Shown piece after piece: positions 40,128-64,000 of a DNA stretch of 64,000 bases. The notes beneath the pieces are model-generated. The model searched no databases and was not told where the DNA came from. It was given only the letters and a program-made list of their open reading frames with translations. This stretch comes from Amphirosellinia nigrospora (Eukaryota; Ascomycota; Sordariomycetes; Xylariales; Xylariaceae). Position 1 is the first letter of the stretch. Each line of letters opens with the position of its first letter. The stretch spans positions 2,108,001 through 2,172,000 of the forward strand of contig SCHM01000003.1 of the NCBI GenBank assembly GCA_004123355.1. Reading direction: 5' to 3'. Position numbers and translations under genes: made by a program.

Positions 40128-41708
40128 TCACAGGCCGGTAGGTAAAGTAATCAAACCGGCGGGTAGCGCAATTCCATTTAGATCGGAGCAGGCAACGCCC
40201 ACAAACGCACCGGTGAAGCTGCCATGTACTTGGTGTCCACCACACTCATCCGAGACGATCGATGCATCGAACGTAGGTCCGATTTCCTGTAACTCGTTGT
40301 CGCTCTGAAGAGCGTACGAGAATTGCAAATCGCGGCCGCGCACTGTGACAGCTAACCTCACCTTCCCCTCGTTAGGGATCTTCTTTGGTTCTGGGAAAGG
40401 CTTTTCGAGTCTCCCAAGTGGGAAAGACGCCTCGGATGACATGATGAGGAGCTCGCGTTGCCCGTCCGAGTGCGCCGTCACCGTGAGATAGAAGAAGTTG
40501 TAGCGGCTGTAGTAAACTGTGAGTCCAGCGTATTGCCGCTCATCCTCTGGCGAGAACTCTATTGTTGTCTCCGCATCGTAGGAAAAGTGTTCCTGGCGCC
40601 TGGCTACTAGAGATTGCTCGAACCATGAGCCAATGGACTCACGTCCGAACAGAACGAGCCTTCCGTCCTCAATTGCGAATATGCGGTCCGTCTCTGGTGT
40701 CCGAAGCCACTGGAAATCCTTGTGCAATTCATCGGCATTATATTTTCTTCTCGGCCCAGTACGGTTCGTCATCTCGCCCGGACGGCAAGTCGACAAACAA
40801 CGATGGGATAGGTCCGTTCTTGACGTAGAGCCAGTCATCTTCCCAGAACGCTTCCTGAATAGCTGTCTCACGGCCCAGTACACAACGGCGTTCCTGGGTA
40901 ATCGGACGGCCGGTAAGGTGCACTAAATATGTCTTACCATCCGCTGCCTCCACAATATCGCCATGACCAGCTCTCTGTAGTGCCGCGAAAGGGTGGTCCT
41001 TCGATGACAGGATATGTTGCTGCGGATGCACGTCATAAGGGCCCAAAATGTCATGAGAGCGAGCGAGCGTGCAGGCATGGTTGTATCCAGTGCCCCCTCA
41101 GCAGTGAGTAGGTAATACCAGCCATTCCTCTTGTATAGATGTGGACCCTCGACTAAATCCAGGTCCGTGCCGAGGAATATGTTTTTTCTTGGGCCGACAA
41201 GTCTCCCGGCGGACGGATCAAACTCTTGCAGCACGATGCCGGCGAATGTCCGAGGCCGGGCGCGGTGGTCTATTAACATGTTGACGAACCACTTCCTCCC
41301 GTCATCATCGTGGAACAGGGACGGGTCAAAGCCGGACGAATTAGCATAAACGGGGTCGGACCAGGGACCTTCTATTGTGGAAGACGAGACAATATAGTTA
41401 TGTGTATCTTTGAAGGAGCCATCCTTGCGTTTCACATCAGTATACACGAGCCAGAACTTCTCGCCATCGTGAGTAAGGCAGGGTGCCCAGATTCCGCAAC
41501 TGTCTGGATCCCCGCGCATGTCCAGTTGGCTTTTCCGGTTCAGCGGGCGAGTAAGTAGTGTCCAGTTCGCAAGGTCCCGGGAGTGGTGGATCTGGACGCC
41601 CGGGTACCACTCAAAAGTTGATGTGGCGATGTAGTAATTGTCACCGACCCGCAGGATCGAAGGGTCGGGGTTAAACCCCGGGAGGATGGGGTTTCGGACC
41701 AAAGGCAT
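40128..41708 (-). CDS. GH43 beta-xylosidase / arabinofuranosidase
   Basis: Five-bladed beta-propeller hydrolase acting on xylan- or arabinan-derived oligosaccharides. The start at 41708 gives [20 protein letters not shown], whose GFNPDPS holds the general-base Asp, then [40 protein letters not shown] is blade 2 and [19 protein letters not shown] contains the pKa-modulating Asp. [19 protein letters not shown] provides the general-acid Glu. From about codon 330 a C-terminal concanavalin-like beta-sandwich follows, typical of the GH43 subgroup with XynB-like enzymes. No signal peptide is evident, so it may be intracellular. No intron is seen. Frame slips lie at a five-C run (41093-41097) and next to an A/T run at about 40742. 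The protein match is continuous over both. Confidence 0.92.
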
Positions 41709-43372
41709 TATGGCAGTATTTCACTTCAGGATAAGAGTACGCAGTCAGAAGTGATATATATTTAAGATTCAAGAAACAACAATAATTTGAAATGGACGTG
41801 ACTCTAGAATTAATATACCTTGGATCGGCATGTTTATTATGGGTAGGCGATCTGCATCTCAACTCACATTGAAGCCAGCTTCATGTGAGGCGGGGGTTTC
41901 CTAAAAGCATCATCTTGTGTATAGCCGTCGCCCACTTGACGACGTATTTATCCGTAACGAACCCTATAGGTCCAAAATGTGGAGAGCGACGCTAGCATCC
42001 ACTAAGCGGCGCGCTATGGCTCTATTACCCGTTCAGTCTATTCTACTGAGGGGGTTAGCTCTGCAAGGTACATCAGATACTCACTTAAGGGTATAGAGTC
42101 ATTCCTCAAGTTATGACATTCAAGTTGCAAAGTTCATTCTAGCAACATTTAAAACTAAAGCAACATATCGCACCATGTGAAAGAAGTTATAATTATCAGA
42201 AAATAAGGCGTTCTAATATTAATAGGAGACCTTGATTCGATCATGACACTTGAATGCACCATATCAGCGTAGTACAAGTATCCCTCTTCAAAACTAGGAA
42301 CATAGGAATATATTCTTCAAATTGGTCTAAATTACAACGTCATTATAGCGCTAGTATAACCACTGTGTTTGCATATCGATGATTTAAGAGCCCACCATAT
42401 TTTCCTTGATGATGGCCCTTTCTTTGTTGATATTTCCCATTCCGGTCCTCTTCCCCCCTTTTTTGTTTCTATCTTGAGTAGTTCTAATTTATGCTTTGTT
42501 CTGCCTCTTTGGACTTTATGTGGTGCGCGTATCTTACGACGGGCGTAGAACTTTAAACAGTGGAACGAATACTTCACTCTTCTTTGTGATTATAATGCGG
42601 GCAAACCACACCTATCCCAAGCATATAGACGTCGTAACATAGTGAAACAGTTTAAATATCTTATAAAGACCTTTTAGATAGATTAGGTAGTGGGAAGAAA
42701 CGATTTTCACTTTATGCCTTTTTAAATTTCAAGCTATACTACTTGGAAGCTAGTTAATCTCTTAAACATCACAACAAGCTCTGCTCCCGCTCTACCAATA
42801 TTATCAGGTCTTCTTCTCTTTGTTAAGTACAAAGAAGATGCCGAACTAGTTTCAATTATGTAATACCTTGTCAAAGCAAAAAACCACCTAAACCAGCATG
42901 AATAAAAAGTGCATCAAATCAAGGAGCAAACTTCCATGCACAATCACAATTTTAGAAGCTGTAGCATAACGCAAACTAAAGTTAAATAGATTGCAGTAAG
43001 CAATTTAACTATATTTAAGCCTATGACCCAGGCCTATCAAATTAAGATTGTCACACCAAACAAATTTCGTGTGTCGTATAATTATGCTGTATATTATCCT
43101 CGTATGCTATACAAAGTTAAACACAAAAGAAAATTTGTGAATGCCACACAAAAAGACCGCTAATCCTTAGCTCCATTGTTTTAATTCCTTTGAATTAATA
43201 CTAGATCTAGTAGGTAGACTATGCTCTTCGATAAAAACGCAACGCTTTTCCAGATACTTTTCTGACCATTTGGATTATGCACCTAATTGCCTACAATAAT
43301 ATCTTTCTTTATTAATGAACTTCATCTCCTGAATTGATGTACGAAGTTATTTATTAGCCACAAACCCCTACA
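41709..43372. other. AT-rich gene-free stretch upstream of the SNF2-family gene
   Basis: About 1.6 kb that looks clearly AT-rich, particularly 42,100-43,350, with no recognisable gene. Such blocks in ascomycetes often come from repeat-induced point mutation of old repeats, but no element family can be named here. Confidence 0.45.
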
Positions 43373-46300
43373 ATGAATGATCCCAGCTACGTCAGCCCAT
43401 CCAAACGTGATCCCAGGGTTAACTTGGATCACTTAATCATCTCGGTTAAGTCCAGAACCGAAGCATCGGCCGACCATGCCCTTAACGAGTTCCTAAGCAA
43501 AGATGGCTATAGCTCTACAGTGCGCCAGTCTAGGGATTATGACTATAATATGTTCCGCAATAGTCTATTCGAAAGGCTCAATATCGATAATGCTGCTACG
43601 CTTTACCCTACTCTCGCCGGGCTCACCTCCATTACTAACGAAGCATCGTTTCAACGATGTCTCACACAGGTTCAGAAAGGAGAGATCGCAATCCCTCGTC
43701 CTTCTAGCTACGGATTGCCTTACTTAGAGCTCTCGTCTGTACGGCCGGCGCACATAGACGTTGAACCTCCCAAGAATGAAGGCGACCCCACTCCAAGTAC
43801 GCCCACCCGGACCAGACCTCAACGACCTATACCCGTTGACATGCCCGATCCCGAAGATCCGAGGGACGATAATGACCCCGTCATAATTGACCTTACACAG
43901 GAGTCACCAGCCGATGATCAGGTGGAAGGGCAAGATCCAGTTTTGGACCACGACGAAGAAGATCTATACCCAGACGAAGGTCCGTCCTTGATTGATCAAC
44001 TAGCACCTCGAGATGACTCAGCAGATGAATCGGAATGGGAACAGGTATGCGACTTCTTCCGCTGCCCTATTGACGCCAGAACGGTTCCCGTCCCAGGGTT
44101 AACCTTTGAGCTCAAAAACTATCAAGCCTTTGCTGTGTGGCGCGTTTTCAGACAAGTCACCGAGAACAAAATTCCAGCGTTTATATTGGGAGACGCTCCA
44201 GGGCTTGGCAAAACTGGGATGTCCTTGGCTATAGCTATAATCTTTGCTATGCTACAGGAAAGGTATACGGGGGTTCTCACTGAGCGGCGCAGGACTGATC
44301 AACCCCGGGAACATCTTCGTCCTGATGCCCCTGGTCCATGCCCTTCTCAACGCGGTCGCCGGGGGATCATATGCCCCTGCGTTACTTCAGGATTGTCACA
44401 CCAGATTGTTAGAAACTTCGAGGATTTCCCTTCCCTATTCTGCGTGCCACCTGTCTTAATTGAGCAGTGGTGTGCTGAAGCGAGAAGGTGGATTGATGAT
44501 AGTCAGGGTAGTCCAGCTCGTAATGTGAAGGTCCGTTATAACCATGCGAACAATTTCCGAGAGCATCATAAGCTATCTGTAGCCGATAATAGAGAGATTA
44601 GCGGAACTCTAGTCAAAAGGAGTGGTTCGAATGGTTATCGTATACGGCCGAAGGCAGGCTCGTCTTCTTACATAATAATATTTAGCAGCCGCGGTGCCGT
44701 TGGTTTAATGGACAAATTCAAAGTACTGGAACCAGTAGATCCTCCATCGCCGTCAACGCCGGGAACGCCAGGAAGGCCGGGTACTCCGGGAAGGCCGGTA
44801 ACTCCGGGAACTCCACGGGGTGGACGAGGAGGGTCGAATTCTCAAACGTCCCGGGTGGGCAAAGCGGACGAGGAGGATCGAGGCCTTCAACGCCACGAGG
44901 CGGACAAGGCGGACAAGTTGGGCGAGGCGGACGAGGCGGACGAGGAGGAGCGATTCCTCAAACGCCACGACCCAGGCGGACAACTGCCGCACCAAGGAAG
45001 ATAAACTCACTCGGCTGTAGTTTTATGTTTTTTGATGAGTATCACAGCTATAAAGGGTCGGCAGGCAGCAGGACACAGCCCTTTGATATGCTTGAAACTA
45101 TACGGAACACAGTTAGAAGGGTGATGGGAATCGGGCTCTCGGCGAGTGTGACAAGGGGGCCTGAGATGTGGCAGCCTTTTGTTGATCATGCGTTTAACAG
45201 TAGCAACGCAGTGTCAATACCAGGGCTAAACGATGCCGCTGGCCTACAAAGGATTCAGACAGACTTCAAATATCTCGTCGATAACATGGAGAGGCAGCAA
45301 TTGAACGATCGAGGAAAGGCAGAGCGAGATAGACGCCAGGAGACGGTCCTGGAATTCACGGGCAACTTCATTCCTCGCATGATGCTTGCACGAACAAGAA
45401 CCTCAAATTTCCGAGGCCAGCCCCTTGGGGCCGTGTACGCTAGGATAAAGTTGAAGCGGCTGGACATGCTACCAGGAAGGACCCGAAACTCTTTCGGAGA
45501 GCTGACTAATTTGATTCAATCATATTGTAACCAGCGATATGAAGATGAGGTTCAAAAATGGGAGGATGGAGGACGACAAACTGCTAGGCCAAATAAGAAA
45601 AGTCTGTTTAATCAGCATTTCGGGCAACAGGTTGAAAACCGAGAACGTGGAGGCCGAGAACAAGAGAGTCAATTTTCAGTTGCCTCTAGAGCATCATGCT
45701 TCCCATACATCGCTCACATGTATCGTGAAGGCATGATACAAGAGCAGGACCTTTTAGTTACAAGCAACCGAAATGTTGCAAGGGACATAACTCTGCTACT
45801 TACTCCCGATAAACTCGTTGCGGACTCGGTTCGTGACTCAATAGAGACTGTTGATCAAATAGTGAACAGATCTCCATTTTCTGGCCATTTAGGTGACTTG
45901 AGGGACGAGTCTCCCAAGATACGATGGGTCGAGGACTATATTCGAAACTTGCTCGAAATCTTGAATACACCCCGGAATGATGCGAAGGTCAATAAAAAAT
46001 ATGGCCCACCACCGCCTGACGGCACGAACGCCCGGCAGTAAGTGTTTTTGGGTCATTTATCCTTCTCTGTCGCGGGATTCCGCTCCTCTGCACTATGAGA
46101 TCCTGCATGCTCCCGAGACACAATAATCCATACGATCTTCTTTAATACTAAACTGAAGTATCTAACTCTCCATTCTTCACAGCGCACTGGTGTTTAGCCG
46201 GGTACCAATCACCGCCCTTCTAACCTTCATGGTCCTGTGGGACACTTTCCGTGACAACATTAGGAGGGGGGAGCTTGTTCTCTTATACGCCCACGCTGGA

Positions 46301-46830
46301 GTAAATACGCCGGCGAGAGCTGGGATGAGAGATTTCAGTAAGTCATTCTCAAAATCATCTCCATGTTATTTTGGCCAATTTGAGCGGCACCGGAAGCTTT
46401 CTCTTTGAGTCCAAGTGATTGTCTAAGAGACTCTGATACACTCCCAAAATATACTTAAGTCAGTGATAACTGACTCTAAGTGTTTTAGTGAACCAGAGTT
46501 GCCAAGAAGATAATCGCTGCAAAGTGCTGATCAGTAAATGAAATATTTGGTGAAGGCCATAATCTTCAACGTGTTAACACTGCCATACTCACCGAAGTAC
46601 CGGTCCATGAGGCCCAAAAACAGTCGTTCGGGCGTGTCGACAGGCAAGGACAAACGATGACTCCCATTTTATACCAACTATACGACAATTTAAATATAAT
46701 TGAGCGTGTAACAATGACCAGGAACAAGAACCGAAGACGCCTCCGTCAGGGGGGCGATGACGTGATCCAGGAAGATCCAGACGTTGAAGACGCTTTGGAC
46801 AATACAATATTGGGTTTAGATGCTGCTTAA
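43373..46830 (+). CDS. divergent SNF2-family helicase/ATPase (copy 1)
   Basis: ATPase of the SNF2 superfamily, expected to remodel chromatin or other protein-DNA complexes in the nucleus; the exact subfamily is not recognised. The first 230 residues are unrecognised and acidic (RDDSADESEWEQ). LKNYQAFAVWRVFRQ is the Q-motif region, ILGDAPGLGKTGMSLAIA is Walker A, and VLIEQWCAEARRWI is motif Ia. An RGG- and Pro/Gly-rich block (44750-45000) precedes FFDEYHSYKGS, a DEYH Walker B. The C-terminal lobe contains ALVFSRVPITALLTFMVL, ISANEIFGEGHNLQRVNTAI and KQSFGRVDRQGQ (motif VI). Two introns are seen, at about 46040-46181 and 46340-46485. Frame slips occur between 44240 and 44460, near 44850 and near 46535. 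The protein ends 50 residues after motif VI without the extra domain seen in the related gene at 62513. Confidence 0.8.
44750..44985. repeat. minisatellite-like coding repeat (Pro/Gly and RGG units)
   Basis: Two blocks are seen directly. The first (44750-44820) repeats GGGAACGCCAGGAAGGCC-like units and codes for repeated PGTPGRPG. The second (44865-44960) repeats GGCGGACGAGG-like units, read as GGQGG/GRGG in the frame that continues into the Walker B motif. It lies inside the SNF2-family gene. Confidence 0.7.
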
Positions 46831-48705
46831 AGCTTTCTTTAAAACGAGCCAGTCTCATTCAATCATTTGTATTTATTAGTAGGACAGTCAATGTTGATCT
46901 TGTTACGCATTTAATTCGCTTTTGCGTCGATATGCGGCGTTAACCTTCTCTCGCATGGGATGTACCCTAATATTCTTGCTTTAGATACTCAGTAGATGTT
47001 ATCTATAAAAATTTAGTGACTTAGAGTTTTCAAAGCGAGATTACTAACATGCCTTATCTGTTACATGGATCTCGCCTACAGATACAGCCCTCAGCTATTC
47101 GTACTATTTAGAGCTCTACAATTTTAGCTATTCGCTAAAACCCGAAATAAATTACTGAAAAATATAAACTTCGGATATATAAGTCTACAGATGTCTATAA
47201 GGTATTAAAAGGTATTTTATGTATATAAAGGCCAGTCAGGTCCTAAATCCTCCTTAGGAAACCTAGAGGATAAGAGGTCCTTTAACGCCATGGCCAATTA
47301 TTAGAATCAATTAGAATAAAGCTGTTCCCAAGTTCTTCTACTAGGCCCTTCGGACATTAAGTATTCCTCTAAGATTTGGCGATATTCTGATTCTGTGGCG
47401 GCGATGAAAGAAAGTGCTAGCATCTTCTGCGGCTGTTGTGATCTCACTTGCAGATAAATTAGCCCATTATGTAGAACTCTTATTCTCATTAGTTTCGTCC
47501 TATTTAAGTAAGCTACGATGGAACTATATATTCGGAGGCCTTTTTGGCATTTAGTAATCCAAAGCACAGCGCGAAATGATGACTGAACACTCGACGCGTA
47601 CTAAAAGAAAGCTACAACAACTCCTTTATACGTTTAAGTATTCCTTTAGCCCTATTGGTCAATGGCCTCTAAGTGCAATCCGCATTACTTTAAGGTTACT
47701 TATTCAATGTCTAGGGCACTATATAATTTTACGATACCTCACTCGGACACCGATTTACCTTATTTGGTAGGTTTTATGGGACTTGAGACCCTAGGAATGA
47801 AGGGCCTATATTTATATAGATAGGGGCTGGCTCTCGAGACTCTTAGACTCTCTAAGCAATAACAGATATTAATATAGACCCTGTATCCTCTTTGACTTGT
47901 GAGGTCTTAAAAGTCCATCACCAGTATTTATCTGTATTCGCTTAGTGTATCATACAAACCTAGACACCTTTGCATAATAAATCCTACTTTACATTTTCTC
48001 CTCGTGACACGAATATATGACAATGATTGCGATTTGGTAATAACAAAAACATGGCTGTTTGTGCTTAGTCCGACCCATTGCAGTACTATTTGCCTAAGTG
48101 CACAGGTGCTGGCTGCGCTCGGACATAAGCTGCAACTACAATTTGATAAGCCTTAATATAAAAACCATGGGTCGATTGATTCTGCCTTTTACTTTCGTCT
48201 AAGAGATTAGCCGGTAGTCTATGCTACCTCAAGCCACTCCGATCATGATTAGTGTTGACACTGCCATTGGTTCTAGGTCGAAAGCTGACTATATTTTGCA
48301 TTATGAGATGTTCTCAAGAAACGTCTTGGGCGATGTTTCGTAGTCAAGAATATACCAAGACAGATAACACTCTACGCATGTGTCATGTCGAGCCCTAAGT
48401 ACAGATAGTGAGTTTCTATTCTTAGCGTCCCGAGAGCTGCCTTGGCGAGACCTAGACCGGTGGTAAATTAAGCGGTTATATTGCCCATCCGGGCCATGAA
48501 TGGGACAATTATTTGTGATCAGTTGTATGTATCTTCATTCATAGCACACGACCCATTACTACGAAGGTCGAGGAAAGAATCCTGTTTAGTGATATAAACT
48601 GATGCCTTTAATCATCCTTGACATTCTTCGTGATCGCTTTGATAGCCTTCACGTTCTGCCGAAACATTAGATCCTTAGCGACCGGTTGTCCATCTTGTCT
48701 GAGTC
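46831..48705. other. AT-rich stretch, possible decayed repeat
   Basis: No intact gene. The sequence from about 46,900 to 48,000 is AT-rich with recurring AGGTCCTTA/CCTAGA-type words, as often seen in mutated ascomycete repeats. An 86-codon minus-strand frame at 47307-47567 (containing IAATESEYRQILEEYL) has protein-like composition but no family I can name. It may be a scrap of an old element, and I cannot support more than that. Confidence 0.35.
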
Positions 48706-49701
48706 ATGAAGCTCATCCTGGTCACAAGCACCCCTCTGGGCGAGTTTTGCAGTCACCCTCCCCAGCCTTGCTGCACGCCGTCAGCGAGGGCTGGGACGAG
48801 TTTTCGCCATACTAGCTTGCCACGGCTACTTGATGGCGATGTAGACTCGCTGCTAGTGAATAATGAATCCCACACCGAATATACTTCGAACTGGGCTGGT
48901 GCTGTCTTGATTGGTTCGAAGCCTACGTAGCGTTACCGGGCTGGGCTCATTACTTCTATAGGTAGCGGATATACAACCGTCTCTGGCACAATTGTTGTCC
49001 CGAAGCCGTCCATGCCTGCCGGAGGCATCAGCACACGGACATATTCAGCATCGGCGTGGGTCGGTATCGACGGAAGCACTTGTCAGTCGGCTATTCTGCA
49101 GACGGGAGTCGACTTCAGCGCCAAAGGAGGCACACTAAGCTATGAAGGCTGGTACGAGTGGTACCCAGACTATGTAAGTAATGAACCGTCAAACTATGCA
49201 ATGAACATACGGCCCGATTTCATACGTGGGCGTTTGCCTCTTGTATAGCATAGTACGGCGTAAAGGTTCTGCACATACCAACTTCCCACTTTCACCCGAT
49301 GGGTATGCTCGCATCTAAATGATTGCCTACAGTCATACAGATTTGCCAACTTCAAAATCTCGGGCGGCGATACGATCACAATGACGGTCACAGCGACAGG
49401 AAAAAACAGTGGCAGCGTAACCCTCGACAACAGAACGACGGACAGTCTGTCTCGCATGCATTCACCAATCAGATTGGGAACCTCTGCCAGACCAATGCTG
49501 AATGGATAGTCGAGGACTTTTCGCAGGGGAAGCCTGGTCCCTTTCGCAAACTTTGGCACCGTCATCTTTACCAACGCAAGCGTCAATGGCGGTGTCGGCC
49601 TCGATAAGGCGGTTATATATGACATCAAGCAGGGCGACAAGGTTTATACGAGCTGTTCGACGTCGAGTTCTAGCTCTGTGTCCTGTTCGTATGTAGGATA
49701 G
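48706..49701 (+). CDS. secreted G1 glutamic endopeptidase (eqolisin)
   Basis: Acid endopeptidase of the scytalidoglutamic/aspergilloglutamic peptidase family, secreted as a proenzyme. The start at 48706 (MKLILVTST) begins a signal peptide that continues in the neighbouring frame as FAVTLPSLAA. A propeptide of about 35 residues follows. The mature part opens with YTSNWAGAVLIGSGYTTVSG; an intron at about 48917-48971 separates LIG from SGYTT. SASAWVGIDGSTCQSAILQTG gives the region of the catalytic Gln, and YEGWYEWYPDY follows. NAEWIVEDF holds the catalytic Glu, then VPFANFGTVIFTNASVNGG. A second intron lies at about 49172-49333. One-base slips lie near 48735, 49430 (a G missing from GGG) and 49528. 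Protein context is otherwise complete. Confidence 0.88.
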
Positions 49702-50443
49702 GTATTTTGATATAGGTAATAGACCTTGGGATAGTATGCCGCTTGAGTTTGATGTAAAGGGGATGGAACGAATTAGAATCTATACTATGTAATTGCTGCC
49801 TCTTAGCGTGCTTCCTAGGTGGCCTTTTTGGCGGCTACGGTCACCTGGAAAAAGACTCCGAATGCCAAGACAAGACAAGACATGCAGCTGGCAGGGTTCC
49901 TCCCCACAAATATCCCGCCCTGCATCAAATGCACGGTCCCCGAAGCCATGACCACCATACACTACAGTATTCCCAGCACTCAACCATCTACAACATCTCG
50001 TTGAGCCGAAGTCGCACGTCGTACGTCGCAAGGGCTAGGCCAGAACCTATGAGCTGGAGTAGTCTACAAATTGCTTATTGAATTGGCCAGAGACGTGTCG
50101 GTCAATTACTGGGCTCACCGACAATATATCTCTCCCTCGCCCTTGTCACGTTGTTGTCAGCTCATGCATGACCTGACCTGGCGACTGCAAATCCGAAAAG
50201 GTCGCGAAGCTACTGGCTCTCGGACGCCCAACGCAACCTTAATTCACCGTGCCACCGTGGCCCATCTACCATCTACCGCTTTTATCATCACCTTTCGAAT
50301 CGTTTGAAGTCTATTGTTTTTCCTACTTTCGAGAGACGGAGAATAAAAGGTAGAAAGAGAGCGACAAAAGGAGAAGAAAAAGAAAGGAAAAGGAAAATAG
50401 ACGTGTATCCATCTACTAGTGCCGACCAACTGCAATCGGAATA
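49702..50443. other. intergenic stretch
   Basis: No gene seen. Its right end is A/G-rich (50335-50400) directly before the TANGO2-like start and is probably a promoter or leader. Confidence 0.5.
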
Positions 50444-51468: not shown

Positions 51469-54151
51469 GAATAATCCTAGACATTATAGGATGGTCCTAT
51501 GAAATTTACTAGTTCTTAGGTCATTGATGTAGTTTAGCGGCCTTATCACAGGCACTGCTTGACTGCTACTTGGTCTCGCAGCAGAGTCACTCAGATTGTT
51601 ACTGCCTTCACAGGGGATTTAATCGCGGGGATACGTAATTTCTAAATGCGGTCTGAAAAGTGTAGAAGGAGCATCGCGAAGGCACTACCGACGCCTCTAA
51701 TCACAGTAGGTACTCGTATAAACCAGCTGTCACTTAGTATCCCTTGGCATATTCCAAACCGCCGTCCCCAAGTGTGGAAAAATGGATTATTTTACTCGCA
51801 CATGTTGATCATCAGCAAATATCCCAGAGAGGCAAAGCCAACTGCTCGATACTTTCCCAGCAGTCTTCACTGAGAACATTGACTGAAACCACCCTATTCT
51901 TCGCCCGGAAGGATTGTACTTGCCATCATTGCCAAACTCATAGCGGGAAAATCATCATGAACCCCTTCATGGTGAAGCTCGGTGCATTTGTTTACTACGG
52001 GGGATTACTTCCCATGGCCAATCCTTGGTAAGAATTTGATAATTAATGCGACGAACAGGATCTAACGAATCTTGTTGATTCAGGCATAACATTGGTATTC
52101 GACACGTGGCGGCGATGTTCTACGGACTACTATTACTCCTTATCCGCTGGTTAAGACGGTTTTGCGCCCTGACAAAATATAAGACGAGGTTCGATTCGAA
52201 ACTAGTCGATTGTATAAGAGGAAAGAGAGCATCTATAGTATTAATGCTTGATAGGGGGTTTGTAGAACACCGCATCTCGAAAGGATCCGGTTGAAATTGG
52301 CTACGCCGGAATACACACCCTTCGCCGACCTGCAAAGCACACCACCCTCCATTCATAACGCGACTATTGAAGGTTACCGGTGCGCTAGGTACGTGGTTTT
52401 TTTAAAGCGAGGCACAGTTCAAAGCTAAACATCACCTCTGCAACCTCTATGTAGCCGTCTACCAACTCCAACTCTCTCTTGCATAACCTCAACAAATTAG
52501 CTGGCGACCCTGAACCGAACCCGACTGATAAGACGCCGACAACCGCCATAACTCGGCATCAACACTCACTCATCCACCATGCCCGCAACTCCTCTGTACT
52601 ATGGGTCGCCTACGACATCGCCGTCATTCTCGCAGGTTTCAACATGCCAATGGAGATGATCTCTCAACTCTTCGCGCTCCTGCTGTGTCGCTTCCGCACC
52701 ACTAATAGCGAGAGCTTCTTCCGATGGCGCTCACTTTCTTGTAATCGGTAGGTCGAGTCCCTCATTCTATAGAAATACTTGCAATCCTCGCCGGCATCAT
52801 AACGTATTAACTGTCTGCATAGCTGCATTTGATGAATTCATATACCTGGTGATGGTTTTGATCCTCATTGTCATCGTCCGGATCCTGGACGGTTATCTAA
52901 ACCTGAGAAGCTGGCCGGTACTGTTTTTCGAGCTCCTAGGAAGTTTGTAAAGTTCGGGAAGGATATTAAACTACGAAGTATCACAACTCGTCGGAATCTG
53001 TAGGAGCAGAAGGGTGGATTGCTAGGTTAAGACAACCTTCAATACTGCTTGCTTTTCTATTGTTAATTCTGGGCAATGCATTCAGTCACGAATAGAGACT
53101 GTGATACACCAATAGAAAGCCTCGGGCGCGGTTGCAATATTCGGCTGCTCAAGTACTCGCCATAGAGGGAGCATCGATGTACCCAGTCTCGATGAGTCAC
53201 ACTGCAACATACCATCTTGTTTTATCCGGTTTTGTAGGAGCCGTTGGCTTTTTTCTCTAATAAGCAATTTGTTCAATTTGATTACTATAGACACCTAAGA
53301 CTTAGGTACTGCTACCTAGTCTCGCACCATATTATAGGTGCTATGTATAGTGGGTGAGGCTTCTCGTTGCATGTCATTCACTCACTCCAAGGAGGTCTTT
53401 CCTGCTCGGCATTTACCTTTTCTTCGCCAATGATATTTTCCAAGTTGGGGTTCTTTATGCGTGGCCTAACCTTAAGGTATTCAAAACAACGCGTTGCTAG
53501 GCTTAGAATCGGCAATTACCTGCAGGTTGCTGCCGAATTAAGGAGCAGTGAAGCAGGCACGGAGCATATTTTGTTCGCGACTTCTTAGTTTAAGTATGTA
53601 GCTAGAATATAAACTTTGATTACGCAGTTCATTGACGTAGGCACCTACAGTGAATGTATCAGGCATTCAATGCGTACTTCCCCCAAGTCGAACCTTACCG
53701 TGTTATTAAGAATAACATAAACAGCCCTACAGCCTAGCAACGCGTTTCTTGTTTTATATGCTCAACTCAACACAACGTCTCCCTTTCTCATTACCACAAC
53801 AACCAGACTACACATCCTCAGCTATTATCCGTCCTGCTACGTAACTTGCCGTTTCTCAACCATTTCCATGAGCTACACAAAACCACTACCTTCCACATCC
53901 TTCTGCCTCATCAACAAGGAAGACTCGAATCTAGAAGAAACGCTGTACACCACCATCAACGTCATTGGCCTGACTATTTGGCTTCTTGTTTCATCGTGAC
54001 TGGAGTATTTGAAGACGATCATAAATCTTACCTGGCTCACGTTGCAAGATCACTCAAATCATCCAACTTGGTTTGTATTATCGTCGAATTCTCCTTGCAC
54101 CATTGTTTCGCTCTTGTCATAAGTGCCCCTCATCAAATTCAAGCCGTCTAG
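51469..54151. other. stretch with no confident gene
   Basis: About 2.7 kb. One weak gene candidate lies at 52479-53001 and is listed separately. A palindrome-like TAGGTACTGCTACCTA lies near 53305-53320. CT-rich sequence with several CAACACAA/CCACATCC words from 53,750 to 54,140 looks like the leader of the gene at 54152. Nothing else is supported. Confidence 0.45.
52479..53001 (+). CDS. possible small gene, unrecognised
   Basis: Weak candidate. A 90-codon frame from 52479 and an adjacent frame starting with an ATG near 52579 (MPATPLYYGSPTTSPSFSQ) both look protein-like. After a possible intron (donor near 52750, acceptor near 52820) one frame reads HCHRPDPGRLSKPEKLAGTV then FRAPRKFVKFGKDIKL with a stop at 52999. 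Composition suggests coding but no domain is recognised. It may equally be chance. Confidence 0.2.
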
Positions 54152-55758
54152 ATGTCTCGACGCGGCCGTACCGGAGGAGCAAAGACTGGAGGTGAAAGAG
54201 GAGGAAATGTCTCTGGCTACTGGTATCCAGCTGCCCCCTTGCCTAGAGAGAACATAAACACAGCAGGGCTCAATCACTGCGTGAGAGACACGCCGATGCA
54301 AGCTGCCCCTTTCACACCTGCTCGCAGTTCTCATAATCCATCTGCACCGACCTCGACACGCAAAATTTCCGCTAGTTTCTCTACGGATTGTCCTCTGTCG
54401 GGACATGCAACGATTGCATATTCCTCAGTCACGGCGTCCACGGCAACGAATCATCCAGGGCCTCTCAGCAGTCATCCTATCAACCAATCTTCAGCTTTGC
54501 CTTCACCTCGGCCTCATCATTACAAGATAAATGGCTTCAACACAGACAGAGCACTGAAGACCTCGCTTACTTTTAGCAATCTTCCTATGCCAGTTGCGGC
54601 GCAATGCCAACGGCCCTCACCTAAACGATCCATGGCAACCACTGGCACGGATAAGAGAGCTCTATACGGCCGTAATGAAGAAAATATCCCACCTAGCCTT
54701 TCAACAACCACCCTCACTGCAACCGAACAGAGTACAGCCGAATACAAAACGCCGAAACTAGATCCTAATCCCGCATCTCCCAAGAAAAAGGCGAAATCTC
54801 GTCCCGGCATACCCATGTCACGAACTTTTGGCGTATTTTCCAATCTGACGGCATCCTTATCTCGCACTTCCCTAGGTCAACTAACCGGGAGCGACTCAAG
54901 ACAGACCTCGGCATCATCGAAGAGCACATTCCGCAAAGATAAGGCACCTGACACAAACCCTCAACTAGTGTCATCTGCCTCGTCACACGCCTTTCCCAGC
55001 CCGCGGGCCGAGTCCGCTCAAGGCCGCCAGATCCACACGGCGCAGAGCTCGGCGTACTGGGCAGGTCGCTTCATGGCCCTACAGGACCGTTTCCGGTCCG
55101 AGATGCTGATGCCCGAGAACTTGGCAATGCTAGTCCATGCGCACGCCGAGCGCTCCCTGGTCCCCGTGGCGCAGCCCAGCCTGGGATCCTCGGCAACGAT
55201 GAGCTGCATCACGCCCGCTGCCAAACCCATGCATTCGACGACCATATCCACCAGTCCCCGCAAGTCCCACCAACAACCGCCAAAGACGAAGAAGAAATCC
55301 TGGGGCGACTCCGCCACTCCCAAGATCTCGGGCCCGACGACCAGATTCGTCCCGCCTCGCTCGTCGTGTGAGACCGCCGACGGAGCTCGTCGACGAGGAC
55401 GCACGCGCCCGACGGATCTTCTCGTACTTGCATACTCTTTGTGCGACCAGCGAGGCGCGCCATAGTCTTCAAAGTTGGCAGCAGGCATACGCGCGGCGTA
55501 TGGGAAGGAGCATCGTAAGTGGCCTGTTCCCTAGAGTCATGGGGTAATGCCTCTGGTCTCTTCAAGCCGCCACCATAAGCCTTGCAAAGCACTTACAGAT
55601 AATGACAATAGAATAACTGACTTGCCAATATTGCAGTCCTGCCAGAAGGCGGCACGATGCAGGAGAGGACTCGCGAGATGACGTGGATCAGTCGCTTACT
55701 TATTAGAAGTGGTGGCGGCCATTTGAAGAATTCGAAGAAAGACGCCTTGAGGCTGTGA
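54152..55758 (+). CDS. conserved disordered protein, unrecognised
   Basis: Not a family I can name with a function. The start at 54152 (MSRRGRTGGAKTGGERGGNV) opens a long Ser/Thr/Pro-rich, probably disordered region to about residue 290. A Lys-rich patch (ASPKKKAKSR) may be a nuclear localisation signal. A conserved block follows: SAYWAGRFMALQDRFRSEML. The clean frame ends at 55463, but conserved-looking sequence carries on in another frame: DEEEILGRLRHSQDLGPDDQ, then ARRIFSYLHTLCATSEARHS and LQSWQQAYARRMGRS up to a donor GTAAGT at about 55509. After the acceptor at about 55635 the final exon reads WISRLLIRSGGGHL and ends near 55758. One-base slips lie near 55280 and 55365. The helical block suggests a protein-binding module. 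Location and role unknown. Confidence 0.6.
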
Positions 55759-56342
55759 CTCGTCGGCCTACTAACTCTTTACTAGATGTTTTCGAATGCT
55801 GTTTTGATACCTTAAAAAGTTGGGATCGTAGTGTATCGATATGTTGATGGAGTGATCAAAGATGAGGTCTCTAAAGTGAGCATGAGGTATGACACGAGTC
55901 AGTCAATAATAAAGCAAGCGTTGAGGACGAACAAGTCTAAGGTGAGGGCAGACATGGTGTCTTTCTAGAAAATTACAAATGTCAAATCAATTATGTAAGT
56001 CGGAAATGAACATTGACACAAAATTAAAATACTTCATTTCATTACTTGCTTGTTCCTTCTTTCTTATAGCATTGAAAGCATCGTATTTTCAAATGCAATG
56101 GATAAGACCCTTGAACGCCAATGCTGTCTTTCCGCCTACCAGGTAGTGCCATGTCCGAAACGCCAATCCGTTGCCGTCTATGTCTACCTAACGCCTTTAA
56201 TACAGAAGCCGTTCCTCATTCTAACCGGGTATGAAAAAAAGTGTTCTGGTATCTGATATTAATAATAAAACGGAAAATAAATCTGGCAATTCCTGATCCC
56301 CGCACGCAGTTGGCGGGGTGAAGGCTCTTCTGCTGTTCGTCA
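55759..56342. other. intergenic stretch
   Basis: Lies between convergent genes. AT-rich in 55,950-56,060; no gene seen. Confidence 0.5.
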
Positions 56343-57976
56343 TCACTTAGACTCGTTTGCCTTCTTCCTTGTCCGCATAAAGTCTTTAATCTGGTCTACT
56401 TTCGAGGCGAAGAACATGCCCTTCCGATCGTTGCGCCAGGCGACGACGCCGATGTCGTCGGCGAAGTTGCATATCTCATTGTACTCCTTGTAGTCGTCGA
56501 AATCCCTGAAGAGGAAGCCCGAGGTGGCGAGCATGCGTTCTGTGTCGAGCTGCCAGAGACGGATCTGGTCGACGACCACCGGGGGCAGCACGGGCTTGTT
56601 GGCTGACGCGGCTACGCGGTGCATCTGCTCGTGCGCGTGCGTCGCCAGGTACGACACGATCTGGTCTGATGTGATGCCCATGTCCACGGCCCGTCGAATC
56701 GAGTTACGTGTCAGCACGCCTGACACCAGCCCTCGAAAGCGGTACTTAAGGTCCGCGAACAGTGCTAGTACCGCGATCTGCAATGGCGAATTCACGTATG
56801 CATATACACGGAAATTAGTCTCGAGAATAATGGCGCTCTTGTCCTGGGCCGAGTCACCGGCCCCTGCGCCGCTGGCATTTCCGGCGCCGTCAGCTGTGGA
56901 GGAAGTTGGATTCCCAGCGGCTGCAAAGCCAGCGCTCACGCTACGCATCTTGGAATCGCTGCTGGTCAATGTGGTCGCGAGGCGTGTCGGAAAGAATTGT
57001 CGCGTGTTGGACGGTGGCACGTACACGAGGCCGAAGTCGACGAGGTTTGGGAGCATGTTGCGGCGGGCTTCTGTCAGCGCGTCGGTATCATACGCTCGTC
57101 CTAGTTCTAGAGAGGCAAGTAGAAAGAAGAAGCACAACATATCGACACTGTCGAGACCTTCGCGCAAAGCTTCGTCAGCGCCCTTGGCTGAAGCGACGGC
57201 ATCGGCAGACTCTAGCCAGAGCAGGAGAAGGGTCCAGACTTGCGCATTCGCTTCTTGCAACAGGAAGGTAAACCCGGCTTGTGTGATATTGATGCCACTG
57301 CCGCCGCGCCGTTCCACGAGATGGCCTCGGATCATCAGATCCTTAACGGATTGCTTGGGCCCGTTTGAACCACGGTCGCCAGGTCCGCTGCTGAAGCCGA
57401 CGGAGTTCACGACAAAATGCAGAATGTCATCCCATTTCTTCTGAGCGTAGCGATCCAGGAAGTTCGGATCGATGTCGGAAGGCACAGGCTGTGTCGAAGG
57501 CACGCCAAAGGAGTTGTGCTCACCGCGACCCTCGAGGACCAACCGTAAGCTGTTACGGAAATTAGGCGTCAGAGAGATGGTGGGCGAGGCGTCTCGTTGC
57601 ACGATGTGGAGGGACCGTAAGATGGAGATGGCCTGGTCTTTCTCCCGCTTGGCGCTCGGTCTAATCCAGGCCTCGAGGTCGGAGAGGGGGAAAGGTGCTG
57701 GCATGTAAAGGATCCCCATAACGATGGTCTTAGCTGTGGGATGACAAACGTCAGCCTAGCCTAGCGTATGTATTGCATGTAGTCTGAGGGGATGGTATAT
57801 GGCCGCCTGTATTAAAAGCAAGGGAGCTGGGAAGAGCTTGGGGAGGCTTTACCCAGCTTCGGGAGCATGCGTCGGAAGATGGCAAATGTAGTCGAGGGCT
57901 GCTGATATAGTCGACGGAAAGTGGTGCCTGGCAGCTGCTCCAGGTACTCGGACAGCGATTCAGTATTGGCCGACAT
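56343..57976 (-). CDS. TFB2: TFIIH subunit Tfb2 (p52)
   Basis: Core subunit of the general transcription and DNA-repair factor TFIIH; it anchors and stimulates the Ssl2/XPB translocase, in the nucleus. Two exons, 57976-57853 and 57733-56343, give 504 residues, close to the yeast protein, with an intact frame. The N-terminal exon reads MSANTESLSEYLEQLPGTTF and LYQQPSTTFAIFRRMLPKL, then AKTIVMGILYMPAPFPLSDL, the characteristic Tfb2 N-terminal block. KWDDILHFVVNS, INITQAGFTFLLQEANAQVW and TLLLLWL are helical repeats. LPNLVDFGLVYVPPSNTRQF and FFPTRLATTLTSS follow. A Ser/Gly/Ala-rich disordered insert lies near 56830-56900. The C-terminus has VDQIRLWQLDTERM and FDDYKEYNEICNFADDIGVV. Housekeeping gene; its clean frame is a useful control for the frame slips elsewhere. 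Confidence 0.95.
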
Positions 57977-59282
57977 GGTGATGACGATGGTGACGATGAT
58001 GGTGATGCCGATGCTGATGGTAATGGTAACCACGGCGAGGCAGGCTTGCGAGGCTTGGACAGACGGTTATCGGGGGATCAGGCGACCATCTGCAAAGAGG
58101 CCGAGCACCCGTAGGTGTAGGGGTTAGAATACAAGATCCGAGGTAGCTTGAAAGTCGGTTGAGCAATAGGTATCTTTATAAGGTAGTAGATAGATGCTAT
58201 AACGGTCTGGTGGTAGCCCGGCTACACCGTGAATTGATACAGCAAGCTACCTACAATAACGCGTGTAGATGCCAATGGATGGTTGGAAAGTTCTACTTCA
58301 CTAACGCATGCGCTGTGACGTCCGTGCCTTGTAGTTGGCACAGTATTAATCCCAACGGGCTCTCTCTTTCGCACAGTCCCCGCAACCTACCACTGCACGC
58401 TACCTAGGTATCAGAAGAAAATAGTATCAGTACATCGCAATAGGACAGACGCGTAGAACATTTAGAGAAGTTCAAAATTTAAGTGGTTTAAAGACTCTCG
58501 GGGAACTTTTAGGTATAGACAGGAGAACACGAGGAAGAAAACTACAACTCAACAGGCTCAGTCTTTTTTAACTCTGGGTTCAAATTAACTTCTGACGGCT
58601 GGTAGGGCGTATGCCTGTGGAATCGGTTACACGTGTATGTGTATTAGTTCGGATGACGTGCTGATAGAAGATACCTAATTCTTTCATCTTAGCATAAAAG
58701 AAGGGGAAGGCTTAAACATTACCGAGAAATATAGCAATGCATAATCATCTATCACTAGGCGGTTATCATACTGGTGACAGCTAGTATACGGAAGAGATCG
58801 TATCTTTTGAAGTGAGGTGATACTTTCCCCTTGGGACTATACCTAACTTAGGGTATAGATAGCAACAAATGCATAGAACCATCATCTTCAAATATCGTCC
58901 AGAATAGAACCATCGGGCAAGTAAGCCGATTTCGGGAATCCCATCCGACCCCGCAATAGCCCGTGGATGCATCCGAGCGGGGCAACGCTTGTGATAGTAC
59001 CCGAAAGACCGGGGTCTTGGAATTCTCGGGACCTATGGCCTTCATTATCTCATACCCCACAAGTCTGATCTACCACCTAGGTAGGTATGACTTATCAGTG
59101 AGGGACCAGATACAGTCTTGTGAAGTATCTCAGATCGAGCTAACTCCAACCATTTCGGGGGCCGATCTCCTCGACTATTTCTGTGCAAAGTTATATCTAT
59201 AAATAAAGATATATCAAGCCTAGCTACTACCTTCTTAATACTATCGCTTTCGAGGCCCGATCAAACTAGTACCAACACCAAC
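57977..59282. other. gene-free stretch between divergent genes
   Basis: Carries the promoters of TFB2 and of the copper amine oxidase. Immediately before the TFB2 start is a GAT/GGTGATGACG-type low-complexity run (57975-58030). TACCTAGGTA occurs at 58401-58410 and CCACCTAGGTAGGTA at about 59073-59087. No gene is seen. Confidence 0.5.
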
Positions 59283-61778
59283 ATGGTTGCTACATCATCA
59301 GCTACTCTCCCTCACCCCTTAGATCCCCTATCCAAGGATGAGATCCAATCCGTTATCGGTGTAGTTAAAAAGGCGCATGGGCAGCTCTTCTTCAATGTCG
59401 TATCTCTTCATGAACCGCGCAAGGCCGAGTTGACGAAGTGGCTTGAGAATCCTTCTGCCCCGCGACCAAGCAGGATTGCGGATGTCGTGGTGATTGCGCC
59501 CGAGGGCAAGGTCTACGATGGGCTCGTAGATCTCGCGTTGGGTTCAATCACAAAGTGGGAGCTGCTGGACGGGTTACAGCCGATTGTATACCCCTTTTGG
59601 GCCTGTGTCATGAATAAAGTACTAATTGGGCCTAGATCACGATGGAGGAATTGATGGCAGTCGAACATGTCTGTCGCAAAGACCCAAAGGTCATAGAACA
59701 ATGTGAGATCAGTGGCATTCCAAAGGAGAGCATGGACAGGGTCTATTGTGACCCGTGGACGATTGGTTATGACGAGCGGCACGGCAACAAAGTCCGCCTT
59801 CAGCAAGCTTTGATGTACTACAGGCCCAATGTGGACGACTGTCAATACCAGTATCCTCTAGACTTCTGCCCGATATACGATGCAGAGAAGAGAGAGATCA
59901 TCGATATTGATATCCCCAAGGTTAGGAGACCACTCAGCAAGAAGGAAGCTATCAATTATCACCCTTCCGGCGTTGAAAAAGCTGGAGGATATAGGAATAA
60001 CCTCAAGCCAATAAATATCACGCAGCCAGAGGGTGTATCTTTCAGCGTAACTGGTAGGGAGATCGGTGGCAGAACTGGAAGTTCCACATTGGGTTCAACT
60101 ATAGGGAAGGTATCGTTCTGAACAACATCACGTTCAATGACAAGGGAAACGTACGTCCGATCTTCTACCGGTTATCCCTCGCTGAAATGGTGGTACCATA
60201 GTAAGTTTGGTTTTCAATCAAGAGCCTTGTTACTACATATAAATTAGCGCGAGATGTTAACTACAACACAGTGGTAATCCTGAACACCCCCCATCACCGG
60301 AAACATGCATTTGATCTTGGAGAATACGGCGCCGGGTACATGACAAACAGCTTGACCCTAGGTTGCGACTGCAAAGGTTCGATTCATTATCTAGATGCCG
60401 AATTCCCTACTAGGGCCGGCGAAATTCGAACGATTAAGAATGCTAGTAAGTATTGGACATACACACCTCGAAGACATCAAGCCTGAGGAATAGCGACTGA
60501 TGCTTGGGGCTTTATTTAGTCTGCATTCATGAAGAAGATGCTGGAATCTTGTTCAAACACTCTGACTTCCGCGATGACTCCGTCATAGTAACAAGAGCAA
60601 GGAAATTAATTATTCAGCAGGTTTTTACTGCTGCCAACTACGAATATGCAATCCAGGTAAGCCGCTGTCCACATCATTTTCGTGATTGATTGTTAACTTT
60701 TGAAAGTGGATTTTCCACGTAAGTTACTGCCCTTAAAGCTGCTCTCGTGAGCAATTTTTCACGCCAATTGTAGCAAGACGGGACGATCCAGCCTGAGATC
60801 AAACTTACCGGCATTCTGAATACATATGCCATGGATATTGATGAAGATACACATGGATGGGAACCCAAGTATATCCAGGTACGACCAAGTCCAAGCTGAG
60901 CTACCCTGTATATACCCCTGAATCCGTTAGCTAATCACTCCATGAAGGTGTCAATGCCCACAACCACCAACACCTCTTCTGCTTGCGTATCGAGCCAATG
61001 TAGATGGTCCTAACAATACAGTATTCGTGGTTGATGCCGTAGCTTCGGACGCTCCGGTTGGAAGCCCAGAAACTACTACGGGAATGCATTTTCCGCCAAG
61101 CGCACCAAATTCTCTACGGTCGGCGAATCAGTCACGGATTACGATGGATCAACGAGCCGAACTTGGGACATCTGCAACACAATAAATTGCATCAGTACAG
61201 CGGGAAGCCCGCAAGCTACAAGCTAGTGAGTCGAGAGGTTCCCAAACTACTGCCCAAGGAAGGCTCCCTAGTGTGGAAACGCGCTGGGTTCGCCAGACAT
61301 GCAGTCCACGTAACCAAATGTAAGCAAGCATAGTCATTAGCATAAAAAGGCCTCGAGAAGACTGTCTAATTACGAAATAGACCGAGATGATCAGCTCTGG
61401 CCGGGGTCGACATGTACCCCAAACATCTGGCGAGCCATCGCTCGGTCTGCCGGAGTGGATGGGCGACGGCAGCGAGTCTATCGAGAACACAGACATTGTG
61501 CTCTGGCATACCTTTGGAGTCACGCATATTCCAGCGCCCGAAGATTTCCCGTAATGCCAGTCGAACCAATCACGCTGCTCCTGCGACCGCGCAACTTCTT
61601 TACCAACAATCCCGTCATGGACGTCCCGCCCAGCTTCTGCAGCACCCCCAGCCAGGTTGTCAACGGTAGGGGGGTTACCGATGCCGCCGACAAGATGAGT
61701 AAGCTGGCTTTTGACAGAGGTAGTGGCTGTTGCACAAATGGCATAAATGGCGTCAATGGAACAAATGGGACGTCATAG
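59283..61778 (+). CDS. copper amine oxidase (peroxisomal AO-I type)
   Basis: Oxidatively deaminates primary amines to aldehyde, ammonia and hydrogen peroxide, using copper and a self-made topaquinone, so it supports use of amines as nitrogen source. MVATSSATLPHPLDPLSKDE starts the first domain, with KAHGQLFFNVVSLHEP. RMYYRPN-type D2/D3 sequence follows (LMYYRPNVDDCQYQYPLDFC). AFDLGEYGAGYMTNSLTLGC contains the region of the catalytic base Asp. TAANYEYAIQ is the N-Y-E-Y topaquinone site, and NAHNHQHLFCLR supplies two copper His. The third ligand region is WHTFGVTHIPAPEDFP. At least five introns are seen. Frame slips lie near 60066 (a G lost from GGG), 61003, 61070 and 61178. The C-terminus ends NGINGVNGTNGTS rather than an SKL/SRL peroxisome signal, which is unusual for the group. 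Confidence 0.92.
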
Positions 61779-62512
61779 TTGAATAGATACCCATTTTTAC
61801 CTAGTGTAATATGAATTAAACTTCGTATGTATATGTGTCAGCTGCTTTCGGTAAAAGATAATTACTGTCGTGAATAAAGACTATCTTGATGCGAGCGTCT
61901 TGCTAAAATAATGGTGAAGAAGGACAAAGAAAAGGTGAAAGAAAGCAAAAGAGATAGGTAGAGACGGGTGTACGAAGTACTTGTACGGTTTTTTAATAAG
62001 GCCATACTAATTATGTTATACACTGAGTTGATTCTAGTTGCGAAATATTTAAATTATGAGCAGAGCTCAGTTCATTAACCGTGATATTATAGTAGTGGAA
62101 AATTTCGTGACATAAACTAAACTACCTAAATCTAGTTTTGTTATTAGGTTCAGTTTTGTTATAGTAGCTAGTACAGCCGTGTAAGTGTGATATATTAAAT
62201 ATATATATAGTGGCGTAGTACTCTGTATTTACATCAGCCTAGCCACAGTAATCTATAGCACTCCTCTCAATACCAAACTGTAGAACAGTTTATCGAACGA
62301 AAGATTGAGTTGCACAATTCTTTTTTAAAAAAAACTATCAACATCACATTGAATCTGATCCATTACTCAAGTTCTTGGCGCCCATCCCAGCCATTTCAGC
62401 CGTCAAAGTACATGCGGCTGGCCCGTTCCGTCTCCCTATCGCTAACTCGGATTGTGACTTTAACTGCCCGGTCCAACCCTTTCCGTAGACAGGATTATAA
62501 AATTGATCTCAT
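61779..62512. other. AT-rich intergenic stretch
   Basis: AT-rich, no gene seen. It includes an ATATATATAT run near 62200. It lies between the convergent 3' ends of the amine oxidase and the second SNF2-family gene. Confidence 0.5.
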
Positions 62513-64000
62513 TTAAACGTCGTTCTGCCGGCTTACGGCTTCGAAGTGACCATTATCTCCATCAGTCTGAAGTTTTACCCAAACAACTGTTTGTTCCTCA
62601 AAGGGCAAATCATCTTCTGCCCTCGCCGGGATCAAATGAGCCACGTTGCGTGGGGTTTGTGAGATGTAACCGATACGAAATTGCCTATTAATGTTTCCTC
62701 GTCTGGCCCATTCCCGTAACCCAGCCTGAAGGCCGTCTGCCGAAAAATTGTTGAACTCTTCAAGCTGAACTTCATCCATACCCGATAATATACAGTTAAG
62801 TAGTTCTTCATCTTCTGGAACCTCTAAATCTGCCCTGTCGAACTGTCTCCGAATTGAGCCCTGCAAAGCTTTGAGCCCGCACAGGTGATTGAAACCGGAA
62901 GTATTGTAGCGCCTGAACCTCCCATTGGGGAAGGCTTGGCGTGCCGCAGCATATGCCTCCGCATCATGATAGCCATCGATTCGCAAGACGGTGCCGTGAT
63001 TGTCTTCGTCATCCCCGTCATCCCCGCCATCCCCGTCACCCCCGTCGTCAGCTTCTTCGTCCGGTTGCCCATTGTCAACCTGGCCAAGAATCAAGTCGGC
63101 TAGTGGGTAACTAGGGCCGCTGTCTTGCCCGACTCCAGCTAGCTGGTCTCGATTCTCATTACGGATTCGGCGGATCTCCTCGAGCAAGTTGTTCCTGTCA
63201 TGCAACTGTATCAAATTAGGTTCCATGACTTGCCCCCTCCTATCCACCCTCCCGAAGGCTTGTTTCTGTATTTCTGAGCTTCTTGGGACTTCCGTTATGA
63301 TGACAGTACTAGCCCTGAATATATTAAAACCATGGCCTATAATGTTCATTGTCGATATAAGTATCTTGACAGGATCACCTTCCTTACAATCCTTTTGTAT
63401 GTAGTCAACATACTCCTGCCTTTCTTTAACACTTACGCCGCTATGCCGTACATGAACACTACATTTCTCTCGGAGTATTTAGGGAAAAGTATCATTAACA
63501 TCAAAAATGCCGAGAGTGGGTAGTCAGCGAATAGAAGAAGATGGCGGATGGTAGTCTCGTCGCTTGGCGGTGGTCCTAAGGTAGCTAGGTCGGGATCATC
63601 TGGATTCTTTTCGGAGATTTCTATGAGGCTATTGATCTGTCTCTCTACTTCTTTTATCTTGGGAGATTGTTCATATAGGATGTCTTTGTGCTTCCACCAA
63701 GTGGATGATTGTATTACACCAAGTGCTTCCGTCTTGGCCCTGTAGTCGAGTTTTTTGGGCACGAGGATTTTGCTGATTCTCGTGGCTATTGGAACAACGC
63801 TGTTGCCAAGTATACCTTCGTAGTTCACGGATTTATTTCCAACTAGTTGTGCGACTGTAGGAAAAGTTGAGGATCGTAGCAATAATTGGTGCGCTCGTGA
63901 CGCCGCCGTTCTCCGAGGGCTGTCGGATATGAATTCAAGCCTCCTTTGCGCAATTTCTCTTTTGATAGGCTTCTCTCCCTTCTTGTTTTCCTTTATCCAG
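62513..64000 (-). CDS. SNF2-family ATPase fused to OTU-like protease domain (copy 2, partial)
   Basis: Runs off the right edge, so only the C-terminal part is visible; the Walker motifs are outside the window. Reading from 64000: helical sequence with RTAASRAHQLLLRSSTFPTV, then SPKIKEVERQINSLIEI and the lobe-2 block HLLLFADYPLSAFLMLMIL. GVSVKERQEYVDYIQKDCKE and STMNIIGHGFNIFRASTVII lead to KQAFGRVDRRGQVMEP, SNF2 motif VI. After an acidic Asp/Gly linker (63000-63060, GGDGDGGDDGDDEDN) comes about 140 residues that look like an OTU-type cysteine protease: NTSGFNHLCGLKALQGSIRR (candidate catalytic Cys), NNFSADGLQAGLREWA and TVVWVKLQ, with HFEAV (candidate catalytic His) near the end. The stop is at 62513. 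One frame slip lies near 63470-63480. The closest relative in the window is the gene at 43373. Confidence 0.78.

Follow-up and report, generated by a model that had tools for sequence, protein, structure and literature searches.

Genes and features at the locus

The window (the whole stretch of DNA that was analysed, 64,000 nucleotides) ends within a minus-strand gene that appears to join the end of an SNF2-type helicase to an additional C-terminal domain. The neighbours of this gene (Tfb2, copper amine oxidase, GH43, rhamnogalacturonan lyase and Pex24) are of an ordinary fungal type and, together with intron-like signals, form the basis for assigning the window to a fungus. The features of the minus-strand gene are as follows:

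62513-63478, minus strand: main ORF of 321 codons, with SNF2 motifs V-VI, an acidic linker, the C-terminal tail and the stop (from the open frame and Pfam)
63433-63999, minus strand: second ORF, which holds the upstream portion of the gene (63436-63999) in a different frame and is cut by the window end
63436-63478, minus strand: overlap of the two frames, with the change at about 63445, where FMYG meets HSGVSV
63320-63337, minus strand: SNF2 motif V region, GHGFNI
63230-63268, minus strand: SNF2 motif VI, QKQAFGRVDRRGQ, around which 78 aa are 50% identical to the paralogue described below
63007-63061, minus strand: acidic linker rich in Asp and Gly, part of whose coding sequence is a 9-nt tandem repeat (63007-63046)
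62516-62998, minus strand: C-terminal domain of 161 residues with a possible papain-like cysteine-peptidase-like fold (from Cys-His order and spacing and from block tests)

Residues 3-82 of the main ORF match Helicase_C (PF00271) above the gathering score (Pfam, E 1.3e-7), and this region includes GHGFNI and QKQAFGRVDRRGQ, which we take to be SNF2 motifs V and VI, with GRVDRRGQ read in the latter region. The upstream part runs from the start of the C-terminal RecA lobe to a motif IV-like SERNVVFMYG; it gave no match of its own in the Pfam scan and is 25.8% identical to the paralogue over 159 aa (E 1.4e-9, for a comparison within the window). The N-terminal lobe of the tailed gene (Walker A, DExH) falls past the window end, while the paralogue has both motifs. 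The closest solved SNF2 protein is FUN30, with a weak match (E 0.015). These observations support the assignment of the gene at 62513-63999 as a predicted SNF2-family ATPase. Compared to known members of this family (PF00176 and PF00271), the gene pair is alike in the Helicase_C match, in motifs V and VI and in the Walker A and DEYH of the paralogue, and unlike in the extra C-terminal domain and in its weak similarity to solved members.

Fusion of the tail to the helicase end

The tail holds NHLCGLKALQGS, FSADGLQAGLREWA and GHFEAV in the same open frame as motifs V-VI. Indeed, motif VI, the acidic linker, the Cys block and GHFEAV, which the preliminary description had placed in one frame, were all recovered within 62513-63478 of the minus strand. 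Met occurs at residues 44, 85 and 234 of the main ORF, motif VI ends at residue 83 and the candidate Cys is residue 200. The last Met ahead of Cys200 is thus residue 85, two positions past motif VI, and a separate Cys-bearing protein started by ATG could begin no later than the helicase end. We thus read the tail as a fused domain, given the continuous frame and the position of the last Met ahead of the Cys, and these data support a single predicted polypeptide for the helicase end and the tail, fused at the level of the reading frame. The earlier proposal of an SNF2 ATPase and a tail domain in one protein therefore holds for the helicase end, through the Helicase_C match, the continuous frame and the Met spacing, whereas the upstream half of the gene lies in another frame in the assembly.

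Codon use was scored against a reference of 2947 codons from ten other stretches of the window. Of the six frames of the tail, its own came out slightly ahead (0.057 vs 0.021 bits per codon for a reverse frame) and exceeded the best frame in 330 overlapping intergenic windows (maximum -0.149); these comparison windows came from three hand-picked intervals and the codon score penalises stops, so that the contrast with intergenic DNA partly reflects a mere open frame. Over the helicase part, a reverse frame (0.008) outscored the true one (-0.008), and the own frame of the short linker was likewise surpassed by two others, which makes codon use weak evidence here.

A diverged paralogue without the tail

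A second SNF2 gene was found on the opposite strand of the window:

43373-46831, plus strand: diverged SNF2 paralogue, which stops just past the helicase, at ...DNTILGLDAA, and has no C-terminal domain
44189-44215, plus strand: Walker A of the paralogue, GDAPGLGKT
45034, plus strand: DEYH of the paralogue

This gene matches SNF2-rel_dom (PF00176) at the gathering score (Pfam, E 1.3e-5), carries GLSAS and FGRVDRQGQ as well, and has two likely introns at 46038-46182 and 46338-46488, placed by eye only. Its end (DNTILGLDAA) sits close to LADLILGQVD of the tailed gene. A search for a hidden tail in the plus frames past the paralogue (46820-48800) found none, since 189 of 200 shuffles scored equally. 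As the paralogue has no tail, the domain would have been gained by one copy or lost by the other.

Reading-frame breaks and assembly quality

The frame change at about 63445 raises the question of whether the tailed locus is a decaying pseudogene copy from which the fused protein is not made. At the matching place the paralogue is continuous (LLYAHAGVNT, judged by eye), and it is frame-broken further on, between KVLIS and VNEIFGEG, a similar break that can be counted on the side of decay. Against this, breaks of the same kind, flanked by conserved coding on either side (by eye), occur in three genes that are unrelated to it (a GH43 xylosidase, a copper amine oxidase and an MFS transporter), and the frame of the tailed gene stays open for about 310 codons after its break. 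Since the paralogue and these three unrelated genes are broken like the tailed gene, we suspect indel noise in the assembly, which, on these sequence comparisons, seems more likely than decay of the tailed gene alone. Note that the survey of frame breaks covered a subset of the genes of the window, in which Tfb2 and rhamnogalacturonan lyase remained in a single frame across their matched stretches. We consider loss of the fused protein by decay somewhat unlikely, and the frame break may leave room for an inactive copy.

An intron was considered as the cause of the frame change and rejected: 41 GT-AG pairs with 10-200 nt could join the two frames of the tailed gene, but the candidates of at least 40 nt would take out conserved residues of the helicase, and the smaller ones are too short to be introns (by eye).

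The three broken genes differ in their layout. The GH43 xylosidase (40128-41720, minus strand) has two frame changes with its middle part in another frame, which suggests assembly indel noise. The copper amine oxidase (59124-61100, plus strand), with matched N2 and N3 domains, changes frame near GREIG/WQNW, and its later parts are spread over several frames, probably with introns. The C-terminal part of the MFS transporter (15813-17500, plus strand) carries on in the next frame.

Arrangement of the C-terminal domain

Three sites of the tail were retained as candidates:

62879-62881, minus strand: candidate nucleophile Cys200 (NHLCGLKAL), assigned from its position
62705-62746, minus strand: middle block FSADGLQAGLREWA, aligned to ataxin-3 FSIQVISNALKVW in a block test
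62546-62548, minus strand: candidate catalytic His (GHFEAV), assigned from its position

Their order is that of a papain-like arrangement, i.e., Cys first, a middle FS..L...W block, and a His on a late strand, the His being followed by an aromatic residue (HFEAV). The Cys-then-His order given in the preliminary description is retained, but its spacing of about 115 residues is revised, as Cys200 and the His were counted 111 residues apart (110 in OTUD5 and 111 in OTUD1). Only 10 residues follow the candidate His.

Two single-sequence structure models of the tail were poor (mean pLDDT 43.7 and 45.6). Both low-confidence models begin with helices, which hold the Cys, and finish with strands, which hold the His, an order that suits a papain-like fold and to which we give little weight. 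Foldseek searches of the PDB with these models (mean pLDDT below 46) returned, up to E 10, 231 matches for the first and 144 for the second, and 0 at E 0.001, with no OTU or Josephin entry among the best 50 of the 231 and the best 50 of the 144; the second model retrieved the Ulp-type protease SENP7 only at E 2.4 to 4.3. Scans of viral contigs and genome contigs, and a tblastn search of phages, turned up no relatives, a result that covers viral, prokaryotic and phage collections and has no bearing on absence in fungi.

An alternative is that the tail is a lineage-specific and non-catalytic extension in which the Cys/His pair is coincidental. Such an extension would agree with the lack of any match in Pfam, NCBIfam and PDB sequences, with OTU tests near chance (see below) and with a diverged paralogue that manages without the tail. 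Indeed, Pfam gave neither OTU (PF02338) nor Josephin matches to the tail at E up to 10, a setting at which the HMMER filters still drop most weak matches; the NCBIfam scan gave no OTU match; the PDB sequence search gave no OTU and two chance-level peptidylprolyl isomerase matches (E 0.71); and neither PHROGs nor PADLOC returned a meaningful match to the tail. The ordered blocks and their family-like spacing speak against a coincidental pair, and we regard a non-catalytic tail as lying on the unlikely side.

Comparison with OTU domains

The tail had been described as OTU-like, a label that the Cys/His order and spacing are compatible with and that the sequence tests did not bear out. Three features speak for a true OTU-family domain. 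First, the Cys-His spacing equals or nearly equals that of OTUD1 and OTUD5, two proteins that the tail also resembles in the His block H[YF][DE]A. Second, in a local alignment with OTUD1 the His blocks stand in register (EDDL..VVWVKL..NGHFEA / EDSL..SIWLSWLSNGHYDA), with a score reached by 31 of 1000 shuffles under BLOSUM62 and 19 of 1000 under BLOSUM45. Third, OTU domains end soon after their His, and so does the tail.

The other alignments and the profiles point the opposite way. A home-made OTU profile (OTUD1, OTUD3, OTUD5 and a typed consensus) scored -0.6 bits on the tail, a value equalled or beaten by 688 of 1705 scored shuffles (out of 2000 generated), PF02338 gave no match, and hhalign joined the tail to this profile over no more than 13 columns near the His (probability 0.7%, E 0.076). 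In a test with three OTUD blocks, the score of the tail was reached by 62 of 1000 shuffles (124 of 1500 with wider spacing) and ranked third of 108 ORF windows, the tail included, with two other stretches scoring higher; block 1 alone was matched by 1542 of 3000 shuffles. Moreover, the alignment with OTUD5 stayed at shuffle level (894 of 1000 shuffles as good, BLOSUM62), while that with OTUD3 was reached by 3 of 1000 (BLOSUM62), yet out of register with the OTUD3 Cys block. The tail is also unlike OTUD-type deubiquitinases in that it has no profile match and no DGxC box, with NHLC in its place and therefore Asn-His instead of Asp-Gly ahead of the Cys. The OTU label thus remains unproven and appears somewhat disfavoured by these tests, and we consider a true OTU-family domain improbable.

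Comparison with Josephin domains

A resemblance to ataxin-3 was spotted at the middle block (FSIQVISNALKVWG, HWFTVRK), and the Josephin blocks were picked post hoc, after this resemblance had been noticed. With three blocks in order, 0 of 1500 shuffles reached the score of the tail (7 of 3000 for blocks 1 and 3 alone), and each block, when placed singly at its best position, again fell on the Cys, FS..W or His site, in the right order. In its initial form, the test gave 0 of 2000 shuffles at the level of the tail and ranked the tail first of 102 ORF windows (46.0 vs 32.2 for the next one), although a spacing limit had put the third block on VWVKLQT and not on the His site. The His block alone was reached by 887 of 3000 shuffles, and a reversed-block control by 35 of 1000, which is itself somewhat low. 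Overall, the Josephin-like block model fits the tail better than the OTU blocks do, but it was chosen after inspection.

The order of Cys, FS..L...W and His blocks resembles that of ataxin-3 and Josephin-2, whereas the alignment to full-length ataxin-3 did not rise above shuffles (750 of 1000 under BLOSUM62, 276 of 1000 under BLOSUM45). Josephin domains have a Gln ahead of the Cys and an Asn about 15 residues after the His. In the tail, Gly stands at Cys-5 in place of that Gln, five residues before the Cys, and the Asn is absent since only 10 residues follow the His, so that the end of the fold is missing. Unlike Josephin deubiquitinases in these respects and in the lack of a profile match, the tail is quite improbably of Josephin type, in spite of its block scores.

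Proposed reading and possible mechanism

Altogether, our preferred reading is that of an accessory fungal SNF2 ATPase from a duplicated and diverged group, to which is fused a tail of papain-like arrangement that might carry out deubiquitinase-like trimming; we hold it tentatively, at a probability of roughly 0.45. This reading includes the OTU and Josephin alternatives as sub-cases, and the respective odds therefore overlap. The tail itself is possibly papain-like, and its sequence lets us place it no closer than that. The sequence shows SNF2 motifs V and VI, the in-frame fusion, the positions of Cys and His and a paralogue that lacks the tail, from which we infer, for this protein, the papain-like fold, catalysis, a substrate and DNA translocation. 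In the proposed mechanism, translocation along double-stranded DNA or chromatin would be powered by ATP through the two RecA lobes, and the flexible acidic linker would tether the tail, which would trim ubiquitin or a ubiquitin-like tag either from its own polypeptide or from chromatin proteins present there. A more specific proposal, which we deem unlikely, is that one copy of a duplicated accessory gene acquired a deubiquitinase from an undescribed papain-like family, which would let a single fungal SNF2 translocase remove ubiquitin or a related tag where it remodels chromatin.

To our knowledge, separate proteins or subunits mostly provide the coupling between chromatin motors and ubiquitin signals. 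If the preferred reading is true, one protein would allow a direct test of whether an accessory fungal motor, or a mobile element that employs such a motor, protects itself or its target site from ubiquitin. Moreover, the two SNF2 genes of the window, one with the extra domain and one lacking it, offer a ready natural comparison. The catalytic claim is unproven, and its value lies in being a testable lead.

Relation to known systems

Accessory SNF2 genes are described in other fungi. In excerpts of the corresponding reports, insertions of Fusarium graminearum match orphan SNF2 helicase-like proteins (PMC11152077), and Trichoderma has a paralogous 'SNF2, DEAD box helicase' group (PMC3218866). 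These are variable or duplicated SNF2-like genes, a kind to which the present gene may belong, and the excerpts mention no peptidase-like tail (PMC11152077, PMC3218866). SNF2 also occurs, in the part of the report consulted, in fungal host-transposon fusion proteins (PMC10799480).

According to an excerpt on Helitrons, these elements combine a helicase with a VTD or OTU deubiquitinase domain in one polyprotein, and its authors put forward the idea that Helitron-encoded VTDs might shield transposition proteins from degradation (PMC9741609). As far as this excerpt goes, Helitrons are alike in joining a helicase and a deubiquitinase domain, the tail here being only a deubiquitinase-like candidate, and unlike in their RepHel with an HUH nuclease, compared to an SNF2-type helicase here. 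In the open-licence literature, at the level of the titles and abstract starts listed, no fungal SNF2 fusion with an OTU, Josephin, deubiquitinase or papain-like domain was found.

Repeats and composition around the paralogue

A transposon was considered, and no signature of one appeared at the sensitivity applied: no inverted repeats were found in 42000-50000, and direct repeats of at least 16 bases occurred there only inside the coding region of the paralogue. No repeats of at least 25 were found in 52000-64000, a range that includes the tailed gene. Between the Walker A and DEYH of the paralogue, where two frames overlap, a GC-rich tandem repeat with 9/18/27-nt periods (44748-44970, plus strand) encodes a Gly/Pro/Arg-rich insert. 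After the paralogue, the A+T-rich interval 47001-48000 displays the strongest dinucleotide bias of the repeat-induced-point-mutation type among 64 bins (TA/AT 1.22, composite index 0.30), and nine other 1-kb bins of the 64 passed the same cut.
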